Assembly (NCBI GenBank): GCA_903904885.1 | Contig: CAIVED010000001.1 | Span: 1-42,373 of the forward strand | Origin: an uncultured archaeon | GTDB lineage: Archaea; Nanobdellota; Nanobdellia; Woesearchaeales; CAIVOO01 | Direction: 5' to 3' | DNA length: 42,373 nucleotides | In this document: positions 2 through 37,655 of the stretch, one piece after another | Layout of the letters: every line of letters starts with the position of its first letter | Numbering within the stretch: the stretch's first letter is position 1 | Program-made: the position numbers and the translations under genes | Notes under the pieces: generated by a model | Databases searched by the model: none | What the model saw: only the letters and a program-made list of their open reading frames with translations | Told to the model about the DNA's origin: nothing

Positions 2-631
2 GAGTTTTACAACAGACTTTTTGGATGGGATCCTCAAAGCAATCCTGCCATGGGCAGCGTATATAATGCAGACAGCCTTGCACTAAGAATGACAATAATG
101 AATGGCCTCCCGCCCCAGTTTTTCAGGGCAGCAATACATGCATCTATCTCAAATAGGAAGTTTGCTGAAGAGGCAAGGCAGAATGGATATGTTGGGGGAT
201 TAATACTTCTTCCAATGGAAACAGTCAGTGAAATAGTTTCGACAAGAGAGTTGTATTCAAGAAGCTATAAAGAAAAAATGTTGCAGAAAGACTACTGGGC
301 CAGCCATGATACAGACCTTGAACTCGCTGCAGTTGCAACGCAGGCAATGACATCCTATCTCGGAAAAGGAAATGTTTCAACATTATATGCCAGATTATTT
401 GCAGGCAACAAAGAAGTTGACAAGGCAATTAAAAAAGCAAACAGCGATGATTTTGCTGATTTCTCACCATTTCTTAATCCCTCTGCAAGAGAACTGGTAA
501 ACAGGGCAGTTGCCTTTCATCCGTTTATGGCGGAAGATGCGATGCCAATGAAAGATGTCCGCTGGCAATTCAATCAGGAATATTCGTATGAAGTTCCCAT
601 GAAGATTTGGCTTAATGAACATAAATTATAA
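2..631 (+). CDS. Unknown protein, 5'-truncated by the window edge
   Basis: The reading frame is open from base 2, so the true start lies outside the window; an internal ATG at 50 is only a fallback. The visible 209 residues have no motif I recognise. The sequence is soluble-looking and mixed in composition, with aromatic residues near the C-terminus (VRWQFNQEYSYEVPMKIW). The stop overlaps by 6 nt the stop of the convergent AbrB-PhoU gene. No function is proposed. Confidence 0.75.
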   Translation, partial: EFYNRLFGWDPQSNPAMGSVYNADSLALRMTIMNGLPPQFFRAAIHASISNRKFAEEARQNGYVGGLILLPMETVSEIVSTRELYSRSYKEKMLQKDYWASHDTDLELAAVATQAMTSYLGKGNVSTLYARLFAGNKEVDKAIKKANSDDFADFSPFLNPSARELVNRAVAFHPFMAEDAMPMKDVRWQFNQEYSYEVPMKIWLNEHKL

Positions 632-1537
632 TTTTTCAGAATTAAGCGTTAAAAGCGGCCCGACCAAATTCTGGATTGTGTGCAGAATTTCAGAGATATA
701 ATTCAGCATTCGTGATTCGCTTACTGATTTGGTCTTGAACAACTCATTGATTTCCTTCATTGTTTTCAATATCCTTGACCCAAGGTCCACTATTTTTTCC
801 CTGTCAAAATTACTGAATATTACCTGGAAATCGTTGAGAATCCCGTTTACTCTCTCAAATATCTCAATTATTTTTTTGTCAGGCATTGTTTTTGCTTCAA
901 AAGAGTATCTTGCAAAATCCTTGTATATGTCCCCGATTGATTCCAGCCCCTCTATTACGTAATAAAGCATTGGAGCGTCCCTTGGGTCCACGAGCCCCTT
1001 GTTTATTATCCTCCTGCAGAAATTTGCATACTTGTTTATTATCAAATCCCTCTCGGGTATTGTTCCCAGAATTTCAATATTCTTGTTTTTGAGCGCGTTT
1101 GCGCAGTCCTCGGCTATTGAGAAAAGCATGTTGAACGTCCTGCTCGTTATGGAATTGAAATTTGTCTCCTTTGCCTCAACAATCTCCTTTATCGTGCATC
1201 CCTTTTCGGTCTGGCTTATTATTTCAAAACCGACAAATTCCTGTAGGACAGAATAAATCTTTGAAACGTCTTCTGGTTTGCTGAAATTTATTGTTATTTC
1301 ATCATAGCCAGCCTTGTATAAAGCGCTTATGACCCTTCTCCATATCTCCTTCAATTCTGAGATGTTTATTGCCGCTTTCCTTATTTCAGGCAAAGTTTGA
1401 GAAGCTATAAGAAGTTCCCTCCCTTTCTCAACTACATCGACCTCGTCGCCCTTGCTGAGGCGGTACTTTCTCGTCCATTTGGAGGGCAGGCTCACCATCA
1501 GGGTGGCTGCGCCCTGCCTGACTATGCTTCGTTTCAT
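626..1537 (-). CDS. AbrB-PhoU domain regulator, copy 1
   Basis: The first ~45 residues (MKRSIVRQGAATLMVSLPSK..., then LSKGDEVDVVEKGRELLIA) form a SpoVT/AbrB-type swapped-hairpin DNA-binding domain. Residues ~95-300 are helical and PhoU-like, with repeated acidic and basic helices. Fusions of this kind are common in archaea and are usually linked to phosphate uptake control, but no pst genes are nearby, so the ligand is unknown. A paralogue of the same architecture lies at 33905-34858. The upstream region holds three inverted repeats and a series of AGTATAWAWACTTT-like motifs, suggesting tight and perhaps autogenous control. Length 303 aa fits the family. Confidence 0.85.
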   Translation of the reverse strand: MKRSIVRQGAATLMVSLPSKWTRKYRLSKGDEVDVVEKGRELLIASQTLPEIRKAAINISELKEIWRRVISALYKAGYDEITINFSKPEDVSKIYSVLQEFVGFEIISQTEKGCTIKEIVEAKETNFNSITSRTFNMLFSIAEDCANALKNKNIEILGTIPERDLIINKYANFCRRIINKGLVDPRDAPMLYYVIEGLESIGDIYKDFARYSFEAKTMPDKKIIEIFERVNGILNDFQVIFSNFDREKIVDLGSRILKTMKEINELFKTKSVSESRMLNYISEILHTIQNLVGPLLTLNSEKL

Positions 1538-1557: not shown

Positions 1558-1633
1558 GAGCAAAAAGCTTGCTTTCGTTGGGGGCTTTTTGCTCAAAAAA
1601 GGCAATTTGGCGATTGCCTGTTTCTGAAACAGG
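1558..1633. promoter_or_regulatory. Three adjacent inverted repeats in the AbrB-PhoU 5' leader
   Basis: Three palindromes lie in a row. GAGCAAAAAGC (1558-1568) pairs perfectly with GCTTTTTGCTC (1584-1594). GGCAAT/ATTGCC sits at 1601-1618. CCTGTTTC-t-GAAACAGG sits at 1617-1633. A minus-strand TATA-like sequence just beyond them would place them in the 5' leader of the AbrB-PhoU mRNA. They could be protein operators, RNA hairpins or both. Confidence 0.6.
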
Positions 1634-1725
1634 TATAAATACTTTTGGGCAGTATATAAACTTTTCTGAATTGTATAATAAGTATAAGCCAGTATATATA
1701 CTTTAATAAAAAAGTATAAATATAA
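1632..1725. promoter_or_regulatory. Iterated GTATA(A/T)A-ACTTT motifs and divergent TATA boxes
   Basis: Five related AT-rich motifs occur in under 100 nt, at about 1632, 1650, 1672, 1690 and 1711. The 1690 copy (AGTATATATACTTT) is almost a perfect palindrome. Some of these serve as TATA boxes: 1715-1725 would start the 1769 gene with a ~24-nt leader carrying the SD-like GGAGTGGTGA, and 1632-1643 read on the minus strand would start the AbrB-PhoU gene. The regular iteration suggests a multi-site operator. Confidence 0.5.
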
Positions 1726-1768: not shown

Positions 1769-2311
1769 ATGACTGGAAATGATAATGCAATGGTACTTTA
1801 TGCACAGAATGCAGGCCTGGATATATCCCGATGCATGATGGACGTACAAACCCCTATTTCAAAACTTGAAATTGAAACAAGGATAGTTGTAGATGAGTAT
1901 ATGTTTGCAGGAGGATTTAGAGACCTTGAGTTAGATACGCATGGAATTTTGGGATTTGCTTATGCTAGACTATTTGAGGAACTAAGAGTAAGGCAAGAGC
2001 AAGAACCATCTTTTTCAGACAAAGTCCTGAAAAGGATATTTGGGGAAAAAGCGCCTAGGTCTTGTATTGAACATGAAGGGAAAAGATATTGCAGAAAATG
2101 GGGTGTGGCAAATGGAGAAAGCAGAGAAAGAATTCTATGGTACAATGAGCATACAAGAAAAGCTGAGATACAAAAAGAGCTAATTGGAAAATTGAAATTA
2201 AATATTTCAACATGGGAACATACATTAGTCTCCAACGAACTGTTACTTGCACTTTTTAGTCCATTGCTTCCCCCTCTGGAAAAATTATTTTATGAGATGG
2301 CGAGGTTTTGA
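1769..2311 (+). CDS. Unknown 180-aa protein heading the accessory operon
   Basis: I do not recognise this protein. It has no signal peptide. The middle is charged, with two cysteines in a short basic stretch (RSCIEHEGKRYCRKWG), and the C-terminus is hydrophobic and Leu-rich (LLLALFSPLLPPLEKLF), a possible amphipathic or membrane-contacting helix. The ATG follows an SD-like GGAGTGGTGA. It is the first gene of a tightly packed + strand series that runs to 9303; the next ATG begins 2 nt after its stop, so translation is probably coupled. Confidence 0.7.
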   Translation: MTGNDNAMVLYAQNAGLDISRCMMDVQTPISKLEIETRIVVDEYMFAGGFRDLELDTHGILGFAYARLFEELRVRQEQEPSFSDKVLKRIFGEKAPRSCIEHEGKRYCRKWGVANGESRERILWYNEHTRKAEIQKELIGKLKLNISTWEHTLVSNELLLALFSPLLPPLEKLFYEMARF

Positions 2312-2313
2312 AA

Positions 2314-2673
2314 ATGAGAGCAATAATTTTATCAGACATGGAAACGGATGTTGAAAGGGTTCTGATAGACCACATCCTGAAGAAAGAGCACGGCTATGAT
2401 TCAAGACTTGTTACCGCTGAAGACAAGCTGTACGATGCGCTTGAAACAGAACAATTTGATGTTGCAGTAATCCACGCAACCACCAACCCAGACTGGGAAA
2501 ATACTGCATTCAGGATAAGGTCAGCGACTCAGATACCAATCTATGCCATACATGGAATAATGGACAAGGACAAACCTGCCTTGCCCAGGATGCTGGAAGA
2601 ACAAAATATCCAATTCTCCAACTACGGGGGCATTGACAAATTCGGAGAATGGCTTGAGGAGCATAAAAAATGA
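2314..2673 (+). CDS. Degenerate receiver-like protein A1
   Basis: This 119-aa alpha/beta protein has the strand-helix alternation of a response-regulator receiver or flavodoxin-like fold: MRAIILSDME, then FDVAVIHATT, then IPIYAIHG. Where a receiver would have its phosphorylated Asp, at the end of the third strand, there is His-Ala-Thr-Thr, so phosphorylation is unlikely. I chose the ATG at 2314 over a TTG at 2308 that overlaps the previous stop. A similar layout is seen at 3751 and 4693, suggesting three diverged copies. The stop overlaps the next start by ATGA. Confidence 0.7.
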   Translation: MRAIILSDMETDVERVLIDHILKKEHGYDSRLVTAEDKLYDALETEQFDVAVIHATTNPDWENTAFRIRSATQIPIYAIHGIMDKDKPALPRMLEEQNIQFSNYGGIDKFGEWLEEHKK

Positions 2674-3230
2674 CAGAAACACAATTTTGGGAAGATGACT
2701 GCCCGCTGTTGCAGGAGATCGTTGGTAAGGAATGGGAAAGCTACAGAACTAATTTATGGGCGAATGATGCCATTGAGTATCATACTGACAATTCTAAAGT
2801 AATGGATATGCCAGCAAAATTGTATCTTGAAAGAGAAGCAATCATACAAAAAGTAGAAAACTTTTACGGAAAAACAATTGAGGCTGCTCTGGGAAAACCG
2901 CTTGATGATAATTCAAACGAGTTTGCAGGAAACATGGGAACAAGGTTAAACATTTCGCTTGGTCTTCCAATTATTGGCGGGACAGAAGCACCATATTTAC
3001 TTCTTTTCACTTCAATAGACGGCGCTGAGCCAGAGGAAATCATAAGGTGCTGTGCTGATGTAATCCAGGCAAGGGATTTCCTGGCAAAAAAAGGATACGA
3101 GATTGAATATGAGCAAAATGAGGGAAATCTGGACCACACAATTAATCCTAAAATTGACAGCGTGGCTGAACTGAAGACCTTTTTGGGGGATTTAAAGCAG
3201 TTGTATGACCTATTTGAGGGAGGAAAATGA
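2670..3230 (+). CDS. FWED-motif protein B1 (unknown)
   Basis: This 186-aa protein begins MTETQFWEDDCPLLQEIVG and is clearly paralogous to the protein at 4112-4696, which begins MTEPTFWEDESPLIRLIAG. The two also share a C-terminal helix with spaced leucines (KTFLGDLKQLYDLFEGGK against DKLFSDIRKVYDSLGGKK). The middle is alpha/beta and variable. No catalytic motif is evident. It follows a receiver-like gene with an ATGA overlap and precedes the true receiver with another, so receiver-like and FWED proteins may be partners. The function is unknown. Confidence 0.75.
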   Translation: MTETQFWEDDCPLLQEIVGKEWESYRTNLWANDAIEYHTDNSKVMDMPAKLYLEREAIIQKVENFYGKTIEAALGKPLDDNSNEFAGNMGTRLNISLGLPIIGGTEAPYLLLFTSIDGAEPEEIIRCCADVIQARDFLAKKGYEIEYEQNEGNLDHTINPKIDSVAELKTFLGDLKQLYDLFEGGK

Positions 3231-3754
3231 CAGAAACACCAAAAATATTGATAGTTGAAGACAACAAAGCTCATCTTCAGAATGCTGTTGAACAGCTTGG
3301 GCATTTTGTGGATTTAACCACTGCAAAGAATTTTGACAGCGGATTGGATGCATTGAGGGATGGCAAGTTTACTTTTATGCTTACTGACCTGATGATGCCG
3401 AAAGGAACCAGCAGAACCATGGGCGACAGGGGAATGGAGATGATTTTTGAAGAAATGCCCTACGGATTTCCTCTTGCATTCTATGCTGCAAGAAAAGAAG
3501 TTCCTATAATTGCAATTGTTACAGACATAAACCATCACCAGCATCCGATGGCCTACTCTTTTGATTACATCCACGGGGTTCACAGGATTAACAATTCCAT
3601 CCTGAAGGTTGGCGGCGCTCCAATGATGCCCAAAGGAGACATTTACGTCAAAGACTGGGCAAGGGCGCTTCTGGACCTGAGAGAAATGGACCTCAAAGAG
3701 GCCTTTCCTGAGATGGAATTTTTTCAAAAGCTTAAGGAGGAATATGGAAAATGA
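3227..3754 (+). CDS. Response-regulator receiver protein with intact phosphoacceptor site
   Basis: The 175-aa protein has the receiver landmarks: acidic pair E11-D12 after the first strand (ILIVEDN), phosphoacceptor D54 in LTDLMMPKG, Thr99 at the end of IIAIVTD, and a Lys near 136-142 followed by a C-terminal helix. An insertion between the third strand and later helices (residues ~60-92) and another around the His-rich NHHQHP make it longer than a minimal receiver. No output domain is fused, and no histidine kinase lies in the window, so the phosphodonor is unknown. It sits between B1 and A2 with ATGA overlaps on both sides. Confidence 0.85.
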   Translation: MTETPKILIVEDNKAHLQNAVEQLGHFVDLTTAKNFDSGLDALRDGKFTFMLTDLMMPKGTSRTMGDRGMEMIFEEMPYGFPLAFYAARKEVPIIAIVTDINHHQHPMAYSFDYIHGVHRINNSILKVGGAPMMPKGDIYVKDWARALLDLREMDLKEAFPEMEFFQKLKEEYGK

Positions 3755-4119
3755 AACTTGCAATCTACTGCGAACAGGGAAATCCTGTAGGAAAAGCTCT
3801 GGAAATGATAACCAAAACCCTTGGAAGCCATGAACCAACAATAGTCTGCGATGAAAGCGCACTATATGACTGGATACAGGAAAACCAGTATCAGGCAATG
3901 ATAATGGTTTCAGTAGCCAACCCTGAAAGAAATTTGAGTCTTGCAAAAGCAGTCAGAAAAATAACAGGAATTCCGATTTATAATTTAGTAGTTAAGGAAG
4001 AGAATTTGGAAGACCTGACAAGCAAGAATATCCGCACTATTCCAATTATGAGCGGCATGCCTGATTTGATAGCTTTGCTTGCAGAAGCAGAGAAAAATTT
4101 AGGAGACAGGCATGACTGA
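3751..4119 (+). CDS. Degenerate receiver-like protein A2
   Basis: This 122-aa protein repeats the A1 layout: MKLAIYCEQGN, then YQAMIMVSVANPERN, then IPIYNLVV. No Asp stands at the receiver phosphorylation position; Val-Ala-Asn is there instead. It follows the true receiver (ATGA overlap) and overlaps the second FWED gene by 8 nt. The order A-B-receiver-A-B-A fits tandem duplication of an A-B pair. The role is probably protein interaction, by analogy with pseudo-receivers; this is inference. Confidence 0.65.
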   Translation: MKLAIYCEQGNPVGKALEMITKTLGSHEPTIVCDESALYDWIQENQYQAMIMVSVANPERNLSLAKAVRKITGIPIYNLVVKEENLEDLTSKNIRTIPIMSGMPDLIALLAEAEKNLGDRHD

Positions 4120-4696
4120 ACCAACATTCTGGGAAGATGAATCGCCTCTTATCCGACTGATTGCTGGAGAGGAATGGACAGAACTTAAGAGAATTTGCCC
4201 AAGAAGGGTATCCCAAGGATATTATGTTATAGGGCTTACCACACCGAGAGCGCAGGAATTATACCAAAAAGCAGAAGATAAGCTTGAAGAGGCTTACGGA
4301 AAAATAATCCAGCCACATTTTAACGGTGTTGCTTTTTACAAATTGCAGGACAGGCTCTTCCAAGTCTCTTACCCTCCGGAAGAAATAAGGGATCTTCTTA
4401 TTGAAATCAATGTGATGCTTCCTGATTTTGGTTCCAGACGCCTTCCGTTTCCAGAATTGACCTTCAACATGCTGCACGACCCTGAGCTGGCAAAAGGGGA
4501 AAACATAAAGCAGCTGATATCCCTTGAAACAAAATTTCTTGATGTTTTCGAAGAGCAAGGGTACGTTTTCCAGTCAACTAGCGATAATATTGCAACAAGG
4601 CACTTCACGCAAACAAAAGTCTCAAAACTTGAAGAGCTGGACAAACTGTTTTCAGACATTAGAAAGGTTTATGACAGCTTGGGAGGGAAAAAATGA
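4112..4696 (+). CDS. FWED-motif protein B2 (unknown)
   Basis: This 194-aa paralogue of B1 has the same N-terminal signature (MTEPTFWEDESPL, EEW at ~20) and the same C-terminal leucine-spaced helix. The centre differs strongly, so the two proteins may have separate partners. No signal peptide, membrane segment or known catalytic motif is visible. The start lies inside the previous gene (8-nt overlap) and the stop overlaps the next start by ATGA, so expression is likely coupled. Confidence 0.75.
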   Translation: MTEPTFWEDESPLIRLIAGEEWTELKRICPRRVSQGYYVIGLTTPRAQELYQKAEDKLEEAYGKIIQPHFNGVAFYKLQDRLFQVSYPPEEIRDLLIEINVMLPDFGSRRLPFPELTFNMLHDPELAKGENIKQLISLETKFLDVFEEQGYVFQSTSDNIATRHFTQTKVSKLEELDKLFSDIRKVYDSLGGKK

Positions 4697-5046
4697 GAAT
4701 CCTGTTTTTAGGCAAAGCGAACTCGGAAATTTCATCTGCAATACAGGGGAATCTGCTGGAAAGAAAAGATGTTTTTGCAGACATTGCATACAATGAACTG
4801 CAGGCCTATGAATCGCTTTTGAGAAGCCCGGAGCTGGTCATAATCTCAGAGCAATGTGAAAGTGTTCCTCTGATAACTAGAGGAAAAACAGAAAAACCAA
4901 TAATGTATGTCCATTCAAAACCGCTTAAAGACGCTGAAAAACTAAAAGAACGGAAAATTTACTGTTACCCGTCAAACAAACTAGGCAATTTCTATGTTGA
5001 CCTTTCATTGTTTCTTGGAAGAATTGGGGCAGGAGAAGGAGCATAG
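4693..5046 (+). CDS. Degenerate receiver-like protein A3
   Basis: This 117-aa alpha/beta protein begins MRILFLGKAN and resembles A1 and A2 in strand order (PELVIISEQ, then KPIMYVHS). The position expected to hold the phosphoacceptor Asp is Ser-Glu. The acidic pair after the first strand is also lost (Gly-Lys). It is the third degenerate receiver of the block and directly precedes the exported beta-rich protein with a 4-nt gap. The relation to receivers is based on fold pattern only and is tentative. Confidence 0.6.
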   Translation: MRILFLGKANSEISSAIQGNLLERKDVFADIAYNELQAYESLLRSPELVIISEQCESVPLITRGKTEKPIMYVHSKPLKDAEKLKERKIYCYPSNKLGNFYVDLSLFLGRIGAGEGA

Positions 5047-5050
5047 ATAA

Positions 5051-6169
5051 ATGAACCTTAAAACAGCCCTCGGAATCGGAGCAGTAACATTGTTGTCTTT
5101 CCTAGCCCCTGCTCTTGCCAAGGCAGAGGCAAAGATTGATGCGGCTTATTCTTTCATCAACAGGCCGAAGATAGAATACGCAATGAGAGGCGCGAGGATT
5201 GGATTTTATGATGAAAACTCTTTTTTCGGGGGAGAGCAGCAGCAAATAGAAACTAAGGGAGAAACGCAAATAAGGAATCTTGCAGGCGCAAGAGTGCCTG
5301 TTGATTTGGGCGGCCATCTCTTGAGGGCAGAGATAATGGGCTCCCAGGAAGCTGAGCAAAACACATTTGGTGTAAGATTAAGATACTTCTTTGATGAAAA
5401 TCACTCGCTTGGCCCTATTGTTGAATCTTTAGCAAAAAAAACAGAAAACAATACGCTCTACGGAATCCAGGGCCATGTTGAATGGCGCGGGATAAGAACT
5501 GAAGGCGGGGTTTACAATCTGATAACACCAAAAGAAACAAAGATTCTTGTCAACGGCGTAACAAATTTCACTGCACTGGACCACAGATTCGGGCTTGCAT
5601 GGAAATTATCAGAAGAACAACAGTGGTACGGCCTTGTTGCTGTAAATCTCAAAGGAAATTTTGGATATCATCTTAAATTCACCTATGAGCCAACAGCGGG
5701 AAAAGCATCTCAAAGAATAGTATTGGCCGACAGCCCAATGGTTGCGCCGTTTGCTTACTATCCTTTGTCTCCGCTGTATGGCGGTGATTCAATGGTGGAC
5801 ATCATTCCAGAATACCCTGATTCTCCTGGCAGTGTTGCAGGAGTGGATGAATTTTATGTTCCGGTATATTTCCCCATGCAGAAAAAAGCTGCCCTATGGA
5901 TCAACCACCTGTCAGACCAGAGAGCTAATACCGAGAGGCTTGAGGTTGAAGGAGCAATATACCCCTTTGCAATGCTCCAGGAAGACAATTTCTTCAGGAA
6001 TTTATTTGTTGGGGCAAAATGGGTCCAGAGCAGGGCAGGGAATGAAACAGAAACCTCAACAAGCGGATATATCGGGCTGATAAAAGGTCCTTTCAGGTTT
6101 GTAGTCCAGCAGGAAGAGGGAAAAAAGGGCGAAACAGTTGGATATGTGATGTGGAGCCAGCAGTTTTGA
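5051..6169 (+). CDS. Exported beta-strand-rich protein, barrel-like, copy 1
   Basis: Residues 1-26 form a Sec-type signal peptide (MNLKTALG, a hydrophobic core, then ALAKAEA). The mature chain has many short amphipathic beta strands with alternating polar and hydrophobic residues and aromatic ends (HSLGPIVES, YGIQGHVEWRG, GYIGLIKGPFRFVVQ) and ends in Phe (VGYVMWSQQF), a layout typical of outer-membrane beta-barrels. An archaeal cell with one membrane has no obvious place for such a barrel, so a surface beta-sandwich is an alternative. A paralogue lies at 9484-10548; both contain YPF...N.FVGAKW near the C-terminus. The function is unknown. Confidence 0.75.
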   Translation: MNLKTALGIGAVTLLSFLAPALAKAEAKIDAAYSFINRPKIEYAMRGARIGFYDENSFFGGEQQQIETKGETQIRNLAGARVPVDLGGHLLRAEIMGSQEAEQNTFGVRLRYFFDENHSLGPIVESLAKKTENNTLYGIQGHVEWRGIRTEGGVYNLITPKETKILVNGVTNFTALDHRFGLAWKLSEEQQWYGLVAVNLKGNFGYHLKFTYEPTAGKASQRIVLADSPMVAPFAYYPLSPLYGGDSMVDIIPEYPDSPGSVAGVDEFYVPVYFPMQKKAALWINHLSDQRANTERLEVEGAIYPFAMLQEDNFFRNLFVGAKWVQSRAGNETETSTSGYIGLIKGPFRFVVQQEEGKKGETVGYVMWSQQF

Positions 6170-6175
6170 GGGGAA

Positions 6176-7102
6176 ATGAATCTTGAACTATTACTTACAG
6201 AAGCAGCAGCCGGTTTTGGTACAGGCGTATTGCTGGGTGTGAGATTTGACAGGAAGTATAATTTTGTACTGGAATTTGACAAAGCCCATTCAGAAATCGG
6301 CGGTAAGCTAGCTATTAATGAAGGCGCAGAAAAGCAAATTTCCCTTTTGCCTTTAGGAAGTTCCATGATGATGGGAGGATTGGCAGGCCTGGTAAATTTG
6401 CCCCAGGGACCGACAATAGCTCTTGAAGGGATTAGCATTTCCATGATATCAACATACGCAGGGTTTAAGGCAGGAGAATATGCCAGCAGGTTTCTAAGAA
6501 AAAAGACAAGATTAAATGATTCTGAACAAGCAGAACTGGACGGCATATTCGATGATTTGAAACAAAACGCAATGAATGACGAGAGTTTTAGCGAACCGTC
6601 TCAAAGACTAAACAGTTTTTTCACAAGAGCTATACAACGCAGCAGAAATCCGGATATTTGCAAAGAAATTTATAACAGAATAGAGGGATTAAACACTGAA
6701 GTTACTGCCTGGAGGGACGCAAGGGCATTAAAAAATTTCCTTCAGCTAACTGAAATGGCAGGGGTCGGCTCCTGCACAATAAATCCTGATCTGAAAGGCG
6801 TTCCTTATGTTGTAATTCTGCACGAAGGGAAAGGCTATCAAACCATGATATCAATAAGTCATGAGCCAGGCGTTGGGGAATATGAAGGTTTTTTTGCTGG
6901 CCGGGGAAGGGTAGAAGAGGCTTTTTCCTGGGATAACAAGCCGGAAACACTGCTGCAGATAATAAACGAGCGTTATCGTGACAAGCCGGTGATACTTGTG
7001 TCGGGATGTTCTGAAGCCCCTCTGGAAATGAAGGGAATGTGTTCTGTACAAGCATTTGCCCAGGACTATAAGCAGAAAAAGAAGTTAGAAAAGTTGAATT
7101 AG
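6176..7102 (+). CDS. Membrane-anchored unknown protein (308 aa)
   Basis: The N-terminus contains glycine-rich hydrophobic stretches (residues ~5-22 and ~56-98, including LGSSMMMGGLAGLV and ISISMISTYAGF) that look like two or three membrane segments. A soluble helical region follows, then a mixed alpha/beta C-terminal domain (PYVVILHEGKG, KPVILVSGCSE). No known motif was found. The gene starts 6 nt after the beta-rich protein and ends 5 nt before the sigma-like gene, so all three are likely co-transcribed. It might link envelope and cytoplasm, but that is inference. Confidence 0.65.
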   Translation: MNLELLLTEAAAGFGTGVLLGVRFDRKYNFVLEFDKAHSEIGGKLAINEGAEKQISLLPLGSSMMMGGLAGLVNLPQGPTIALEGISISMISTYAGFKAGEYASRFLRKKTRLNDSEQAELDGIFDDLKQNAMNDESFSEPSQRLNSFFTRAIQRSRNPDICKEIYNRIEGLNTEVTAWRDARALKNFLQLTEMAGVGSCTINPDLKGVPYVVILHEGKGYQTMISISHEPGVGEYEGFFAGRGRVEEAFSWDNKPETLLQIINERYRDKPVILVSGCSEAPLEMKGMCSVQAFAQDYKQKKKLEKLN

Positions 7103-7107
7103 AAAAG

Positions 7108-9303
7108 ATGACATCGGATGACCGAGAACTCGAACTTATTCAACGCGCTAAAACTGGAGATTCTTACGCGCAGGAAGAGATAGTTAAAAAGTATGAAAAA
7201 CTCGCAATCTGGGCCATTCCTTCTAAGCTGAGAAATGATGATGAGATTCAAGAGGCAAAAATTGATGCCTGGAGAGCGATAAATGATTTTGACCCCTCTT
7301 TGGGTAGCCTGACAACACTAATTGTCAAGTATGTCAAAAACGGTGTCTTTACCAGAAGGCGAAGTGAAAAATCAAAAAAGATAATCCCAAAAGACAAAAT
7401 TGTTTCATTGTATGAATATGTAAACGCGGAAACAGACAGAGTTCTAATTGAAACATTAGACTCAGAAAGAGCAGCGCTTCCTGGCTGGGAGAAACAGCAA
7501 CCAATATCTTTTCTTGAGACACGTGTTGACCTAGGCGATTTGATTTCAAGAACAGAGCTTTCAGAAAAGGAAAAAAATGCTTTGCTTATGCATCTCCAAG
7601 GCATGAACAATACAGAAATAGGAGATGTAATGAACCTTTCGCGACAAAGAATAAGCCAAATCATTAAGGAAATATTATGCAAGCTCAAAGGCTCAGTCTA
7701 TGAGCCAAATTTGATAAGTCTTATGGACGGAGAAAAAAATTCTCGTTTTGAATTTCCCCAGGACCATTTAAAAATGCAGAGGATACTCTTCAAGCACGTT
7801 CTTAATCAAACTGGTTTGCCTGTTGAGAAAATAACCTGGGAGCTTGTGCAAAAATACGGATTGCGGGAGATTATTCCTGGGAACTCTCGAAAACCTCCAA
7901 GAAAAGCAGAAGTCATCAACAGACTTTTATCCCCTGAAAAAAGGATGCCTGATTTCTGCTTCCTGGGAACAAGAAAATGGAAAGGGGAAGATGCGAAAGC
8001 AAAATCTTTTGATGCAATGGAATATTTGGTTATGAATTTTGCATACATTGCAAGCACCCCTGCTTTTGATATAGTACCTTGGCTGCAGGGAATGGTTAGC
8101 GGGGTGTATGCCTATAGTTGTAAGCGGGCAAATAAAGAGTTCCAATATGAAAGACTTAAACTTGATGACCCGCAAATGAAGAGAATGAGTTTATTATCAA
8201 GCACAACAGACAATAACTCAAAACTTCTAGGTGGAAATCACAAGAATGCCAAAGGGAAGGTAATAGACCATCTTGAAAAGTTAGAGAACATAATTAATAA
8301 CTCCCCTCTGACTACCAGAGAAAGAAAAATTCTGGATTTATGGGTGGATGGTAAGGACTGGGGCGAAATATTTGGCAATATTCCTGAAGAGTTTGGTGGT
8401 GCAAAAGAAAAAAAAGACAGCATGGTAAGACAGGAAATGGGCCGCATCAAAAATAAAATAAAGCTGGGAGCCATCTTACTTTTCCCATCCTACGAGGAAG
8501 GCGCAGATCTTGAAGAGATTGAAAAAGAAACATCAGAAAGGTTTCATTCAGGTAAAGAGCTTAGCATTTTTGACAGGTATTTCAGGTTAAGGCTTGGAGC
8601 AGTAATAAAGGAGGTTGCAAGAGAGAGAAAATGGAAACTAGAGGATTTTCCTTATGTTGCAAAGAACAGTCACTTTCATGACAGATTTGGCAACATTATG
8701 GAAGTTTTTGGCCATTCTGTCTCGAGAATGGCACTTTTTGCCTTTCCGGATTTGTGGAAAGAATGGCAGTTTAATTTTAAAGGCAGATGGGATGGTGAGA
8801 GAGGCAGAGAAAGAGCGTTCAGCGCCATTGAGGATATTTTGGAGAAAGAGCGCTCATTCATTTTTACAACTGCACATTGCAAAAAATACCGTTTGCGTGG
8901 GATGCTGGATTCATTTGGGAAAGGGAATTACATTGGAATAAATCAGCTATTTTGCAGGGATTACTGGGGTAAGAGGATAAACACTAATTTTGAGATGCAT
9001 GACAGAAACAGGAAACTGCTTGCTCTTTTGTTTGATGCACGCGGCAGTCCTTATGCCAGAAAGCCAAAAATGAGCCCAGAGGATATTACTAACTTTGACA
9101 GAAAAAATCTTTACAGGCTGGCAGGGCTTTCACAATCTGAAGAACTGCAATGGGAAACTCGTATTGAGATCTGGAATTATGGGGCAGGATATCTCAAACA
9201 CATTGAAGTTGGAAAAATGACCAGCCTGTCTTCTAAAGTTTGCAGATATCACTTTAATACTACAAGGGAAAGAATGACAGAGATAGTCTCAAAAATGTAC
9301 TAA
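7108..9303 (+). CDS. Sigma-70-like protein with region 2 and region 4 signatures, 731 aa
   Basis: Residues ~7-86 read as bacterial sigma-70 region 2: LIQRAKTGDSYAQEEIVKKY, then DDEIQEAKIDAWRAINDFDP and a basic end VFTRRRS. Residues ~150-196 read as region 4, a helix-turn-helix: LSEKEKNALLMHLQGMNNTEIG then LSRQRISQIIKEIL. A second, weaker set occurs at ~303-356 and ~400-455 (LTTRERKILDLWVDGKDWGEI). The motif (K/R)W(K/D)GE near 290-307 recurs at 560-578. Archaeal RNA polymerase uses TBP and TFB, so a true sigma role is unproven; it may be a DNA-binding protein derived from a bacterial or viral sigma. It ends the 1769-9303 operon. Confidence 0.8.
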   Translation: MTSDDRELELIQRAKTGDSYAQEEIVKKYEKLAIWAIPSKLRNDDEIQEAKIDAWRAINDFDPSLGSLTTLIVKYVKNGVFTRRRSEKSKKIIPKDKIVSLYEYVNAETDRVLIETLDSERAALPGWEKQQPISFLETRVDLGDLISRTELSEKEKNALLMHLQGMNNTEIGDVMNLSRQRISQIIKEILCKLKGSVYEPNLISLMDGEKNSRFEFPQDHLKMQRILFKHVLNQTGLPVEKITWELVQKYGLREIIPGNSRKPPRKAEVINRLLSPEKRMPDFCFLGTRKWKGEDAKAKSFDAMEYLVMNFAYIASTPAFDIVPWLQGMVSGVYAYSCKRANKEFQYERLKLDDPQMKRMSLLSSTTDNNSKLLGGNHKNAKGKVIDHLEKLENIINNSPLTTRERKILDLWVDGKDWGEIFGNIPEEFGGAKEKKDSMVRQEMGRIKNKIKLGAILLFPSYEEGADLEEIEKETSERFHSGKELSIFDRYFRLRLGAVIKEVARERKWKLEDFPYVAKNSHFHDRFGNIMEVFGHSVSRMALFAFPDLWKEWQFNFKGRWDGERGRERAFSAIEDILEKERSFIFTTAHCKKYRLRGMLDSFGKGNYIGINQLFCRDYWGKRINTNFEMHDRNRKLLALLFDARGSPYARKPKMSPEDITNFDRKNLYRLAGLSQSEELQWETRIEIWNYGAGYLKHIEVGKMTSLSSKVCRYHFNTTRERMTEIVSKMY

Positions 9304-9339
9304 CGCCGTATCCATCGCCACGTCTAAAGTTTAAACTAG
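9301..9339 (+). repeat. Dispersed short repeat with TTTAAA core, copy A
   Basis: The sequence TAACGCCGT, about 7 variable bases, then CGCCACGTCTAAAGTTTAAA occurs here directly after the sigma-like stop codon. It recurs inverted at 26462-26498, and the core ACGTCTAAAGTTTAAA recurs at 35625-35640. The core could act as a BRE/TATA element, but no gene starts 25-28 nt downstream of this copy. Confidence 0.7.
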
Positions 9340-9411
9340 GTGAGTTTGCCCATTTACCCTAAAAACAATAAAAATCACGCTTTTGTGATACTTTCTTTCC
9401 TTTTTTAATAA

Positions 9412-9452
9412 ACTATGTGACAAAAAGTAAAAATTTCTATGTAACAAAAATT
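9412..9452 (+). promoter_or_regulatory. Promoter region of the second beta-rich protein, with direct repeats
   Basis: CTATGTGACAAAAA (from 9412) and CTATGTAACAAAAA (from 9436) are direct repeats 24 nt apart. The second runs into AAATTAAATA, a plausible TATA box ~30-35 nt before the ATG at 9484. The pair could be a two-site operator. It gives this gene a promoter separate from the long upstream operon. Confidence 0.45.
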
Positions 9453-9483
9453 AAATACAATTCCGGCCTTAGAAATAGGTAAA

Positions 9484-10548
9484 ATGAGCTGGGCAAAAAA
9501 AATAACAGGAAAGACAAGAAAGGGAATCGCAACCATGGCAGCGGCACTGTTCCTGCTTGGCGCTCCCTTGCTGTCAAAATCAGATGAAATAAATATTTCC
9601 AACTCCTTTGCAAACGAAAAAAACAGGAATTCCCTTGAATTTAAGATAAATCATGAAGAAGAATTTGACCTAGGGGACAAATATGTTCCTCAATCAGGGC
9701 CGGTTTCCCTTAGAGCCATCGGACCAACGCCTTTCTCAGATTCAAAAAAGATTTTCTCAGGCACAAATTCGTCTGTATCGCTGTTTGCCAAAACATCAGA
9801 CCTGAGAACAGAGCATCCGGATTACTGCGGAGTCCGCATTCGTTCTGAAAACGACGGCTCAAGGGCAGACCTCATCCTCGGTGGAGAGCTGGTCGGTTCC
9901 CGGAGCATTCCATATTTGAGCAGTTTTAACATAATAAGAATTCCTGGAGGCAATCTCATACTTGCCGCAGACATTTCAACCAATGAGGGCATCTATTCTG
10001 CTGGATTTTTCAACAGCAACAATGCAGTTGGCTACGGCGCATTCCTGACCTATGACACTCTAGACAGAAAAAGCCTTGAGCAAATTGTGATAACCGACGG
10101 CAATCTGCTCAGCAGAAGGCATGCCTATTACATAACAAACTTTCCCGAAGATCCGATTTGGGCAACCCCCTTTGATTTTGCAGAAAGGGGCGGCATCCGG
10201 CTTGAGCATTCATATTCTGCTCCTGACAGAAACGACCGCATTTCAGCAGAAGCCATGATATACCCATTCAGCTATGCTGCAGGAAGGGAGAACATCGGCA
10301 ACTGGTTTGTCGGAGCGAAATGGGACAGAACCTCCATGCCCGGGGAAAAAAGCGAATCTGCCTGGGTCAGCACCGGCTACACCAGCGGGAGCATAAGGAT
10401 TTACCTATCCAAAGAAGTTTCAGGCAAGGAAAAACTGGCCGGCGGATTTGACGTCACGCTTGAAACGCAGAAGCTTGCCGCGCTCAGGGGATTTGCTGAT
10501 TACGACCTGATTTCCCTCGGAACTCTTTTAGGCGGGGTTGGGAAGTAA
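9484..10548 (+). CDS. Exported beta-strand-rich protein, copy 2
   Basis: This 354-aa protein has a basic n-region and hydrophobic core (residues ~1-33, KKITGKTRKG then TMAAALFLLGAPLL), consistent with a signal peptide. The rest is beta-strand rich. It matches the 5051 protein along its second half: VGYGAFLTYD against FGYHLKFTYE, QIVITDGN against RIVLADSP, and IYPFSYAAGRENIGNWFVGAKW against IYPFAMLQEDNFFRNLFVGAKW (shown in part). Unlike copy 1 it does not end in Phe. The sigma-like gene lies between the paralogues. Confidence 0.75.
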   Translation: MSWAKKITGKTRKGIATMAAALFLLGAPLLSKSDEINISNSFANEKNRNSLEFKINHEEEFDLGDKYVPQSGPVSLRAIGPTPFSDSKKIFSGTNSSVSLFAKTSDLRTEHPDYCGVRIRSENDGSRADLILGGELVGSRSIPYLSSFNIIRIPGGNLILAADISTNEGIYSAGFFNSNNAVGYGAFLTYDTLDRKSLEQIVITDGNLLSRRHAYYITNFPEDPIWATPFDFAERGGIRLEHSYSAPDRNDRISAEAMIYPFSYAAGRENIGNWFVGAKWDRTSMPGEKSESAWVSTGYTSGSIRIYLSKEVSGKEKLAGGFDVTLETQKLAALRGFADYDLISLGTLLGGVGK

Positions 10549-10579
10549 TTGCATCTCCCTTGAAAAATATCCCGACTGC

Positions 10580-10780
10580 TGGTTCTTGCATTACTTTTCC
10601 TGTTGTTTTTGCTTCTTCTGCTCGAGTGCCATGCAAGAATAAAATTATTACTTGCCGAAGGCACAAGAAAATGCGTAGCATTTTCTGTGCAGAAAATGGC
10701 AAAGCCATTTTCTTGCAAGTTAAAGCAGTTCTGGCAATTGAGGCAAACAGCGAGAGCAAGAATCTAAAATAAGAACCGCC
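10580..10780 (+). repeat. Structured intergenic element E, copy 1 (long form)
   Basis: This is one of four related elements (19019, 20992, 24678). It starts TGGTTCTTGCATTA, contains TGCCATGC and CTGGCAAT that can pair as a stem, and carries GCAAGAATC near its end. The long form holds two nested hairpins in the middle, AGAAAATGC/GCATTTTCT and GCAGAAAATGGC with GCCATTTTCTTGC. It fills the space between convergent genes. A MITE-like element or a structured RNA are both possible. Confidence 0.75.
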
Positions 10781-10825
10781 AATAATAAATAGTTTTATGT
10801 TAGTAAAATAAAAAGAATAAAAACT

Positions 10826-18966: not shown

Positions 18967-19005
18967 ATTATTTTTTGTTTTCTTTTTTTATTTCTTCTTC
19001 CAATA
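18967..19005 (+). terminator. T-rich terminator after the SIMPL gene
   Basis: A run of T tracts (TTATTTTTTG, then TCTTTTTTTA) directly follows the stop codon, the usual form of an archaeal terminator. Structured element E copy 2 begins a few bases later. Confidence 0.45.
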
Positions 19006-19018
19006 AGAATATTTTTCT

Positions 19019-19165
19019 GGGCAAGCCTTAAACTCACTGATTGCTTTTTTGTTTGTCTTTATTGCCAGGCTTGCAGTAAACTGCCTTCGGCAGTTAATAA
19101 TTATCTTCTTGCATGGCACTTAAGCAAAAGAAGTTGAACAAACAAAAAGAATAATGCAAGAACCA
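19019..19165 (-). repeat. Structured intergenic element E, copy 2 (short form)
   Basis: Read on the minus strand it starts TGGTTCTTGCATTA, has AAGTGCCATGCAAG and CCTGGCAATAAAG as stem halves, and ends TTTAAGGCTTGCCC. In place of the long-form hairpins the centre holds one short hairpin, ACTGCCgaaGGCAGT. It lies between convergent genes. Confidence 0.75.
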
Positions 19166-19191
19166 AAAAACAGGATTTTATTTAATGACGC

Positions 19192-20954: not shown

Positions 20955-20991
20955 TTTTTTATTTAATTCCTTTAGATAAAAACCCATTTAC

Positions 20992-21150
20992 TGGTTCTTG
21001 CATTACTCTTGCTGTTTAGCTTGCTTCTTATGCTCGACTGCCATGCGAGAAAATAATATTTATCTGTCAAGCGCAGCACAGACAGATTAAAGCAGTTCTG
21101 GCAATCAGGGCCAACATCCTAAGCAATAAGCAGAGTTAAGACCTGCCCAG
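20992..21150 (+). repeat. Structured intergenic element E, copy 3 (short form)
   Basis: It starts TGGTTCTTGCATTA, contains ACTGCCATGCGAG and TTCTGGCAATC as stem halves, and ends GAGTTAAGACCTGCCCAG, close to the end of copies 2 and 4. Its central hairpin is CTGTCaagcgcagcaCAGACAG-like, unlike the others in sequence but in the same place. It lies between convergent aIF1A and lspA. Confidence 0.75.
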
Positions 21151-21156
21151 AGAAAA

Positions 21157-21624
21157 TTATTTTGCTCTAATCTTCGCCGTGCCTTTGCTCCAAAAAATTT
21201 CTTTAGCAATCAGCCCAATAATCCCCACGTTCAGATAGATGTCCGCAAAGTTGAACACAGGCCAGATCCGGAAGTCAATGAAATCTGTAACATAGCCAAA
21301 AGCAACCCTGTCAATCAGATTCCCCACAATCCCGGCAATCAGGAAAAACAGCATAACCCTGCTGAATTTGTCTTCTGGGAATTTGTCATGGAAATAAATC
21401 ACAATCCCGAGAACAATCAGATAAATCCAAATCATGTAATTATTAATCCCCTGAAAAAGTCCGAAGGCGATGCCGAAATTCTGCACAAATGTGAGATGAA
21501 ATACGTTTTTTATCAGGGGAACCGATTCGGCCATGCCCCTTGCAAAAAATTTTGCCAGCTGGTCAGCAGCAATCAAGACCATTATGAGAAAATATAAAAA
21601 ACTGCCCTGCTTCTTCTTCACCAT
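21157..21624 (-). CDS. lspA: Lipoprotein signal peptidase (LspA, signal peptidase II)
   Basis: This membrane aspartyl protease cleaves prolipoproteins before the lipobox Cys. The 155-aa protein has four membrane segments. Conserved positions are Asp21 in AADQLAKF, the NFGIAFGLF motif, catalytic Asp105 in GNLIDRVAFGYVTDF and Asp128 in VFNFADIYLNVG. LspA is a bacterial enzyme not typical of well-studied archaea, so lateral transfer is likely. A lipobox protein is encoded at 34862-35482. It overlaps the coiled-coil gene by 7 nt and ends the 872-aa/coiled-coil/lspA operon. Confidence 0.93.
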   Translation of the reverse strand: MVKKKQGSFLYFLIMVLIAADQLAKFFARGMAESVPLIKNVFHLTFVQNFGIAFGLFQGINNYMIWIYLIVLGIVIYFHDKFPEDKFSRVMLFFLIAGIVGNLIDRVAFGYVTDFIDFRIWPVFNFADIYLNVGIIGLIAKEIFWSKGTAKIRAK

Positions 21625-24577: not shown

Positions 24578-24677
24578 AAACCGCCTCTTTTTAAAGTTTT
24601 TAAGGGGATTTAAGGAGTTTTTATTTTTAAAGGTTGTGGTAAAGTGAGCCATACATCCACCAAACAAAATAATTTTT

Positions 24678-24878
24678 GGGGCAAGCCTTAGCTTCGATTC
24701 TTGCTTTTCAGGGTTACCTAGATTGCCAGGCTCGCGTAACTTGCAAGAAAATGGCTTCGCCATTTTCTGCACAGAAAATCCGTTGGATTTTCTTGTGCCT
24801 GCGGCAAGTAATATTATTTTCTCGCATGGCAATCATGCAGAAGAAGCCAAACAAACATCAAGCCTAATGCAAGAACCA
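24678..24878 (-). repeat. Structured intergenic element E, copy 4 (long form)
   Basis: On the minus strand it starts TGGTTCTTGCATTAGGC, has ATTGCCATGCGAG pairing with CGCGAGCCTGGCAAT, carries two inner hairpins as in copy 1 (AGAAAATCC/GGATTTTCT and GCAGAAAATGGC with GCCATTTTCTTGC) and ends CTAAGGCTTGCCC. It occupies most of the 372 gene-free bases between the Ig-repeat gene and the microprotein genes; the rest (24879-24949) is AT-rich with nothing recognisable. Confidence 0.8.
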
Positions 24879-24949
24879 AGAAACGGAATTACGCTAGTCT
24901 AAGAGCATGAAATCAGAATAGAAATAAAAAAATAAAAACATAAAAAAAA

Positions 24950-26461: not shown

Positions 26462-26498
26462 TATTTAAACTTTAGACGTGGCGAATGGGACGGCGTTA
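26462..26498 (-). repeat. Dispersed short repeat with TTTAAA core, copy B
   Basis: The minus strand reads TAACGCCGT, seven variable bases, then CGCCACGTCTAAAGTTTAAATA, almost the same as copy A at 9301. It lies between the RelE-type pair and the HNH gene. Confidence 0.7.
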
Positions 26499-33698: not shown

Positions 33699-33839
33699 CG
33701 TCAAGAACCACCTGCTAAAGCAGGTGGCGTGTTACGACCACCTTAAGAGCAAGTGGTTCTTGAGCGTGCTCAGAAATTGCTCGTCCTTACCTCGAGCTAA
33801 AGCATGAAGTGTGCGTCAGGAGCAATTTCTGACACGTCA
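33699..33839 (+). repeat. Double-palindrome element P, copy 1 (IS200/IS605-PATE-like)
   Basis: 141 nt with two imperfect inverted repeats. Stem 1 joins AGAACCAC to GTGGTTCT and encloses the hairpin CCACCTGC-taaa-GCAGGTGG. Stem 2 joins CAGAAATTGCTC to GAGCAATTTCTG and encloses GCTCG/CGAGC. The same element lies at 37512-37655 with high identity. The CACCTGC-taaa-GCAGGTG hairpin is like subterminal hairpins of IS200/IS605 elements, but no transposase is present. It fills most of the 321 bases between the acidic gene and the AbrB-PhoU gene. Confidence 0.75.
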
Positions 33840-35482: not shown

Positions 35483-35621
35483 ACTGTTAAGATTCATTAT
35501 GGCATATTTAAATATGCTTTTTAATTTAGGCTAATACCTTAAGACTCACTTCCATTCATTAAAAATTATTTCATCCTGTTTAATGCCGAATTAGTTCACA
35601 GTATGCAACGCAGTGGCTAAC

Positions 35622-35642
35622 ACGACGTCTAAAGTTTAAATA
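35622..35642 (+). repeat. Dispersed short repeat with TTTAAA core, copy C
   Basis: The core ACGTCTAAAGTTTAAATA matches copies A and B; the outer part is poorly kept. No reading frame follows, but ~25 nt downstream begins an area with tRNA-like phrases (GGTTCAAACTC at 35711), so a small RNA start is possible. Confidence 0.6.
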
Positions 35643-37511: not shown

Positions 37512-37655
37512 TGTCAAGAACCACCTGCTAAAGAAGGTGGCGTGCTACGAGCCACTTTCATAAACCGGTGGTTCTTGAGCATGCTCAGAAATTGCTCGTC
37601 CTTACTTCGAGCTAAAGCAACGAAGTGTGCGTCGAGAGCAATTTCTGACATATCA
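37512..37655 (+). repeat. Double-palindrome element P, copy 2 (IS200/IS605-PATE-like)
   Basis: 144 nt, same order of two inverted repeats as copy 1: AGAACCAC...GTGGTTCT and CAGAAATTGCTC...GAGCAATTTCTG. The inner hairpin has one mismatch (CCTGC-taaa-GAAGG). The outer ends are TGTCA and TGACA-like. It sits between lysS and the 37660 gene, in the same orientation as copy 1. Confidence 0.75.

Follow-up and report, generated by a model that had tools for sequence, protein, structure and literature searches.

A candidate lineage-specific regulatory operon with receiver, pseudo-receiver and sigma-70-like genes in a woesearchaeal genome

Results

Gene layout

The source genome (1.31 Mb, 44 contigs, 98.7% complete) carries a block of eleven plus-strand genes, g1 to g11, within the initial 42 kb of its contig C1; this whole stretch of 42,373 nucleotides is referred to as the window. 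The ribosomal genes rps7 and rps12 converge on the block, and an AbrB/PhoU-type gene diverges from it. Genome-wide statements are based on family and profile searches, and recurrence was assessed in 192 other genomes of the same order (193 including the source genome). The genes and features of the locus are the following:

626 to 1537, minus strand: AbrB/PhoU-type gene, divergent, with an upstream region in common with g1
1632 to 1704, plus strand: operator-like cluster of three AGTATAWAWACTTT copies (starts 1632, 1651 and 1691)
1769 to 2311, plus strand: g1, 180 aa, no family match
2308 to 2673, plus strand: g2, 121 aa, predicted pseudo-receiver, first half of cassette copy 1
2670 to 3230, plus strand: g3, 186 aa, FWED protein 1
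3227 to 3754, plus strand: g4, 175 aa, receiver of the TDxNHH family by family alignment and active-site residues
3751 to 4119, plus strand: g5, 122 aa, predicted pseudo-receiver, paralogue of g2
4112 to 4696, plus strand: g6, 194 aa, FWED protein 2, paralogue of g3
4693 to 5046, plus strand: g7, 117 aa, probable third pseudo-receiver, weak when taken alone
5051 to 6169, plus strand: g8, 372 aa, predicted exported, N-terminal signal-like segment
6176 to 7102, plus strand: g9, 308 aa, N-terminal third moderately hydrophobic
7108 to 9303, plus strand: g10, 731 aa, sigma-70 regions 2 and 4 (residues 9–194) and a long C-terminal region
9301 to 9335, plus strand: 35-nt element ending ACGTCTAAAGTTTAAA, beginning at the g10 stop codon, with five exact core copies in the genome
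9484 to 10548, plus strand: g11, 354 aa, predicted exported, paralogue of g8

All eleven open reading frames of the first-pass annotation were found in place, as was the operon-like spacing that it had described for the ten genes between 1769 and 9303, with overlaps of 4–8 nt or gaps of 4–6 nt. Six of the nine junctions within g1–g10 overlap (by 4 nt at g1/g2, g2/g3, g3/g4, g4/g5, and g6/g7, and by 8 nt at g5/g6) and three are gapped (g7/g8, 4 nt; g8/g9, 6 nt; g9/g10, 5 nt). The start codon of g2 is TTG; an ATG 6 nt downstream would leave a small gap. For every open reading frame, the annotated frame outscored the other five in a codon model trained on the conserved genes of the window. A G-rich, Shine-Dalgarno-like stretch is found at most starts and is weak at g10 and g11. 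The genes g10 and g11 are 180 nt apart, and g11 is probably a separate transcription unit. Among the PADLOC defence families, none matched in the block except for a weak receiver-domain match of g4, and no defence or virus assignment was obtained.

Repeats

The three AGTATAWAWACTTT copies span 73 nt upstream of g1. The third copy (1691) includes the perfect palindrome AGTATATATACT, and a TATA-like box lies directly downstream of the cluster, at about 1713–1722. The pattern gave three matches in 231 nt (0.002 expected) and nine in the window (1.6 expected), both being post hoc statistics on a pattern derived from the region itself. The repetition upstream of g1 is real.

Copies of the element that begins at the g10 stop codon lie at 9301–9335, 26464–26498, and 35607–35640 in the window and at two further loci of the genome (L009 and L010); the reversed control gave no copy, compared to five exact core copies of the element. 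One copy precedes a XerA/integron-integrase-like recombinase gene by about 50 nt, and the element is possibly a recombination site. Two other kinds of repeat were noted in the window. An interspersed repeat of ~170–240 nt occurs in four copies (10556–10796, 18968–19185, 20968–21163, and 24660–24890), which are 71–89% alike in pieces and occur in both orientations; one lies just downstream of g11, and another overlaps a 957-aa open reading frame at its start. Near-identical, hairpin-forming blocks are found at 33700–33839 and 37513–37655 (pieces of 45, 52, and 34 nt, 88–96% alike).

The receiver g4 and its family

In the search against PF00072 (Response_reg), g4 scored 22.9 bits (E 1e-4), below the cut-off of 30.2; its assignment as a receiver is supported by the family alignment and by profile matches to the PDB. 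The alignment is marked by the active-site residues, by a TDxNHH motif after strand 4, and by VKNW close to the end. The active site of g4 is complete (acidic pair E11 and D12, D54, T99, and K142), and the protein is predicted to be a phosphorylation-competent receiver.

A search with a relative of g4 detected the family in seven of the 192 other genomes. At four of the eight loci from these genomes (L041, L059, L062, and L064), the receiver gene has a TrmB-type gene as its direct, divergently oriented neighbour, and at one an AbrB/PhoU-type gene takes that position. No earlier description was found of this receiver family, often with a divergent TrmB gene, and the family represents a testable unit in its own right. 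In one other woesearchaeon (G161), the g4 relative is accompanied by another receiver, a small receiver-like gene, and GHKL ATPases.

Clusters with a TDxNHH receiver and another receiver were seen in G161 (L060:4640-13743) and in a further genome, G172 (L058:6059-12455). Proteins of ~200 aa and of ~610–630 aa seem common to both, and the G161 cluster adds two GHKL ATPase genes. The source genome itself has a second receiver region (L011, C12:9000-28000), which contains two receivers, one of them an 'ILYIDDS' receiver, and an AbrB/PhoU-type gene.

Histidine kinase families HisKA and HATPase_c were searched for in the source genome. HisKA gave no match, and HATPase_c matched two genes, GyrB and topoisomerase VI B by sequence, in agreement with the first-pass description of receivers without a kinase. 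Across the order, 91 of the 193 genomes have a HisKA match and 145 have receivers. Receivers without a detected kinase are thus a trait of the source genome, of its closest relative (G001), and of others, not of the order as a whole.

Pseudo-receivers and FWED proteins

A three-sequence profile of g2, g5, and g7 matched response regulators in the PDB at 3.2e-5. The profile of g2 and g5 alone reached an E-value of 0.08, g7 alone gave no such match, and comparison of the pseudo-receivers with the profile of the TDxNHH receivers gave no signal. In all three proteins, the phospho-acceptor aspartate is replaced by other residues (alignment with 1nxo; A7). Of the receiver modules that had been annotated in the block, g4 therefore stands, being the only one that keeps the active site, and g2, g5, and g7 are better described as pseudo-receivers.

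The paralogy of the two FWED proteins, proposed earlier, was borne out in a comparison with shuffled sequences (g3/g6, Z=18). Similarly, g2 and g5 are paralogous (Z=11.4), and g7 is weakly similar to both (p about 0.02–0.03). As both pairs are clearly paralogous, a two-gene cassette of pseudo-receiver and FWED gene is present twice (g2,g3 and g5,g6), flanking g4. The duplication suggests that each pseudo-receiver works with the neighbouring FWED protein. The FWED structure predicted for g3 is alpha/beta with moderate confidence (pLDDT 68). The model gave no PDB fold match at E<0.001, and FWED relatives were found neither in the 192 genomes of the order nor in GTDB contigs or IMG/VR.

The sigma-like protein g10

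The archaeal polymerase normally relies on TBP and TFB. Family searches agreed with the sigma-70-like annotation of g10: TIGR02937 (2e-15) and region 4 (5e-7) were both over the cut-off, and region 2 (1.5e-4) fell just below it. Two further genomes of the order have the C-terminal region, and G161 encodes a full-length relative; residues 335–731 align with the G161 protein, which also has a region-2 match. The C-terminal profile matched weakly in G009 and G077. The protein matched in G077 contains DUF4046 and is encoded in a conjugation-like cluster (L136:4038-14347). No relatives of g10 were found in IMG/VR. The phage-type family phrog_351 was discarded as a sigma match for g10, as it is generic and RpoD-like sigma proteins of other woesearchaea match far better.

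Sigma-70-like matches over the cut-off were obtained in 71 of the 193 genomes, some of them with regions 2, 3, and 4. Many of these (L026-L045 and other loci) are RpoD-like, often several per genome, and lie in long open frames. In 2021, Castelle and colleagues described sigma-70 proteins from Woesearchaeota; they detected no anti-sigma factors and considered it unclear how the proteins are controlled (PMC8204110).

Exported proteins and g9

The products of g8 and g11 are 23% identical across 184 residues (Z=15.6 against shuffles), and both have N-terminal signal-like segments. They had been annotated as paired exported beta-rich proteins; the pairing and the signal-like segments were recovered, whereas 'beta-rich' reflects, for g8, a sequence pattern and a model at pLDDT 34. 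An outer-membrane beta barrel was considered for g8/g11; the g8 model, a beta meander at very low confidence without a PDB match, is unusable. Amphipathic-strand statistics were not significant for either protein, and neither had a family, fold, or relative, including in the 192 genomes. A candidate g8 relative in G108 (E 0.003) is a lysozyme-like protein and was rejected as a chance match. At a locus of another genome of the order (L063:403-2166), an exported 587-aa protein ends in ISFTISYLF, which resembles a bacterial outer-membrane C-terminal signal.

The membrane anchor assigned earlier to g9 is weak: no segment exceeded the standard TM threshold (maximum KD19 1.56). No significant similarity was found between g9 and the small membrane proteins encoded beside rps7 in G001.

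Recurrence and chromosomal place

The complete gene set recurs in none of the 192 other genomes. The g4 and g10 families co-occur only in G161, on different contigs, and this single, unlinked case was set aside as evidence. Hit lists across the order, read by eye, placed receiver and sigma-like genes close together only in G166 and G189. The co-occurrence in related DPANN genomes that the first-pass annotation had suggested looking for was thus not observed within the order. This is the outcome that it had named as refuting its proposal, and it applies to a conserved system but not to a lineage-specific one. The parts are less unusual than it had suggested: sigma-70-like proteins and receivers are widespread in the order, and woesearchaeal sigma-70 proteins have been published (PMC8204110). 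The set as such appears unique to the source lineage, and the envelope-sensing role that had been proposed for it is putative.

At the same place beside rps7, G001 carries a receiver and small membrane-type genes, of which only the receiver is detectably similar to any block gene. Other genomes have unrelated genes there. That G001 has another receiver with membrane genes in this position is a point in favour of a regulatory hot spot that evolves fast.

Discussion

Our preferred reading is that the block is one co-transcribed, lineage-specific regulatory operon of Candidatus Woesearchaeota whose parts act together, to which we give somewhat less than an even chance. It draws on the coupled coding layout, the active site and family alignment of g4, the PDB match of the pseudo-receiver profile (3e-5), the duplicated cassette, the sigma regions, the lack of HisKA or kinase-type HATPase matches, and the clustered operator-like repeats. 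Further support comes from the TDxNHH receivers that lie beside TrmB (four of eight loci) or AbrB/PhoU genes (one) elsewhere, the operon itself being divergent from an AbrB/PhoU-type gene, and from the cluster around the g4 relative in G161 and the receiver and membrane-type genes beside rps7 in G001. Against it stand the absence of the set from the other genomes, the unlinked g4 and g10 relatives in G161, the linkage of receiver and sigma-like genes in G166 and G189 only (by eye), and the lack of an assignable function for g1, g3, g6, g8, and g9.

Nearly as likely, and a serious though tentative alternative, is that a hot spot by rps12-rps7 gathers fast-evolving accessory genes, so that the ten genes would be co-transcribed without forming one system. 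The different receiver and membrane-type genes at this place in G001, the unrelated genes there in other genomes, and the lack of homologues for most block genes all fit such a hot spot. Against it, the very tight coupling, the internal duplication of a two-gene cassette, and the receivers at the same place in both relatives all argue for a shared theme.

The one-operon reading has a variant in which the exported proteins are the output, serving at the cell surface or in host contact, and the receivers and sigma-like genes only regulate them. We regard this effector variant as unlikely: two exported paralogues, one inside the operon and one just downstream, are in its favour, but it leaves the excess of regulators over exported proteins unexplained. 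Very improbable, finally, is that a mobile or viral element introduced the sigma-like gene together with its regulators, the block being its remnant or cargo. In favour of such an origin, the C-terminal profile of g10 has a weak match to a protein encoded next to conjugation-like genes in G077, and the short repeat directly after g10 also occurs closely ahead of a recombinase gene of the archaeal XerA type. Against it, the block has no integrase, capsid, or replication gene, matches the rest of the window in composition and codon use, and has no IMG/VR relative, phage and plasmid records giving only single weak sigma-domain matches.

Under the preferred reading of one regulatory operon, that the parts form a single pathway is something we infer from the operon layout. 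The exported g8 and g11, and perhaps g9, would report on the cell surface, and each pseudo-receiver would bind its co-encoded FWED protein. Charged by small phosphodonors or unphosphorylated, g4 would switch the pseudo-receiver/FWED complexes, which would hold or release g10; g10 could then act on promoters, among them perhaps that of the operon itself. The full chain, from the exported proteins to promoter action of g10, is improbable. An archaeal signalling system in which a sigma-like protein of bacterial type is controlled by kinase-independent complexes of receivers or pseudo-receivers with FWED proteins is doubtful as well; if true, it would explain how DPANN sigma-70 proteins can be regulated without anti-sigma factors. 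Woesearchaeal sigma-70-like proteins are frequent, and their function with the archaeal polymerase and their control are open questions (PMC8204110). With no kinase detected in the genome, an operon that unites a sigma-like protein with receivers offers a concrete protein set for binding tests.

Comparison with known systems

Receivers and a sigma-type protein are also combined in the PhyR-NepR-sigmaEcfG switch of Alphaproteobacteria, which includes the single-domain receiver MrrA (PMC5964349). The likeness is an analogy only, as the block has no receiver-sigma fusion, NepR-like gene, or histidine kinase; family searches of the block returned neither such a fusion nor a NepR family match. The woesearchaeal sigma-70 family fam00359 (PMC8204110) is closer: like g10, it has regions 2 and 4, belongs to the same archaeal group, and has no known anti-sigma factor. 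In contrast to fam00359, g10 is ECF/SigH-like with a weak region 2 and is encoded together with receivers in one operon; its long C-terminal region recurs in just two more genomes of the order.

The orphan receivers beside TrmB or AbrB/PhoU regulators in Woesearchaeota belong to the same TDxNHH family as g4 and are likewise near a gene for a DNA-binding regulator. Elsewhere, however, orphan TDxNHH receivers are usually single genes, whereas g4 is embedded in a ten-gene operon. Known pseudo-receivers (reviewed in PMC12632262), such as that of ShkA (PMC7010744), resemble g2, g5, and g7 in being receiver-like without the phospho-acceptor. Those of the block differ in that they are stand-alone and archaeal, and in that g2 and g5 have been duplicated along with their FWED partner.
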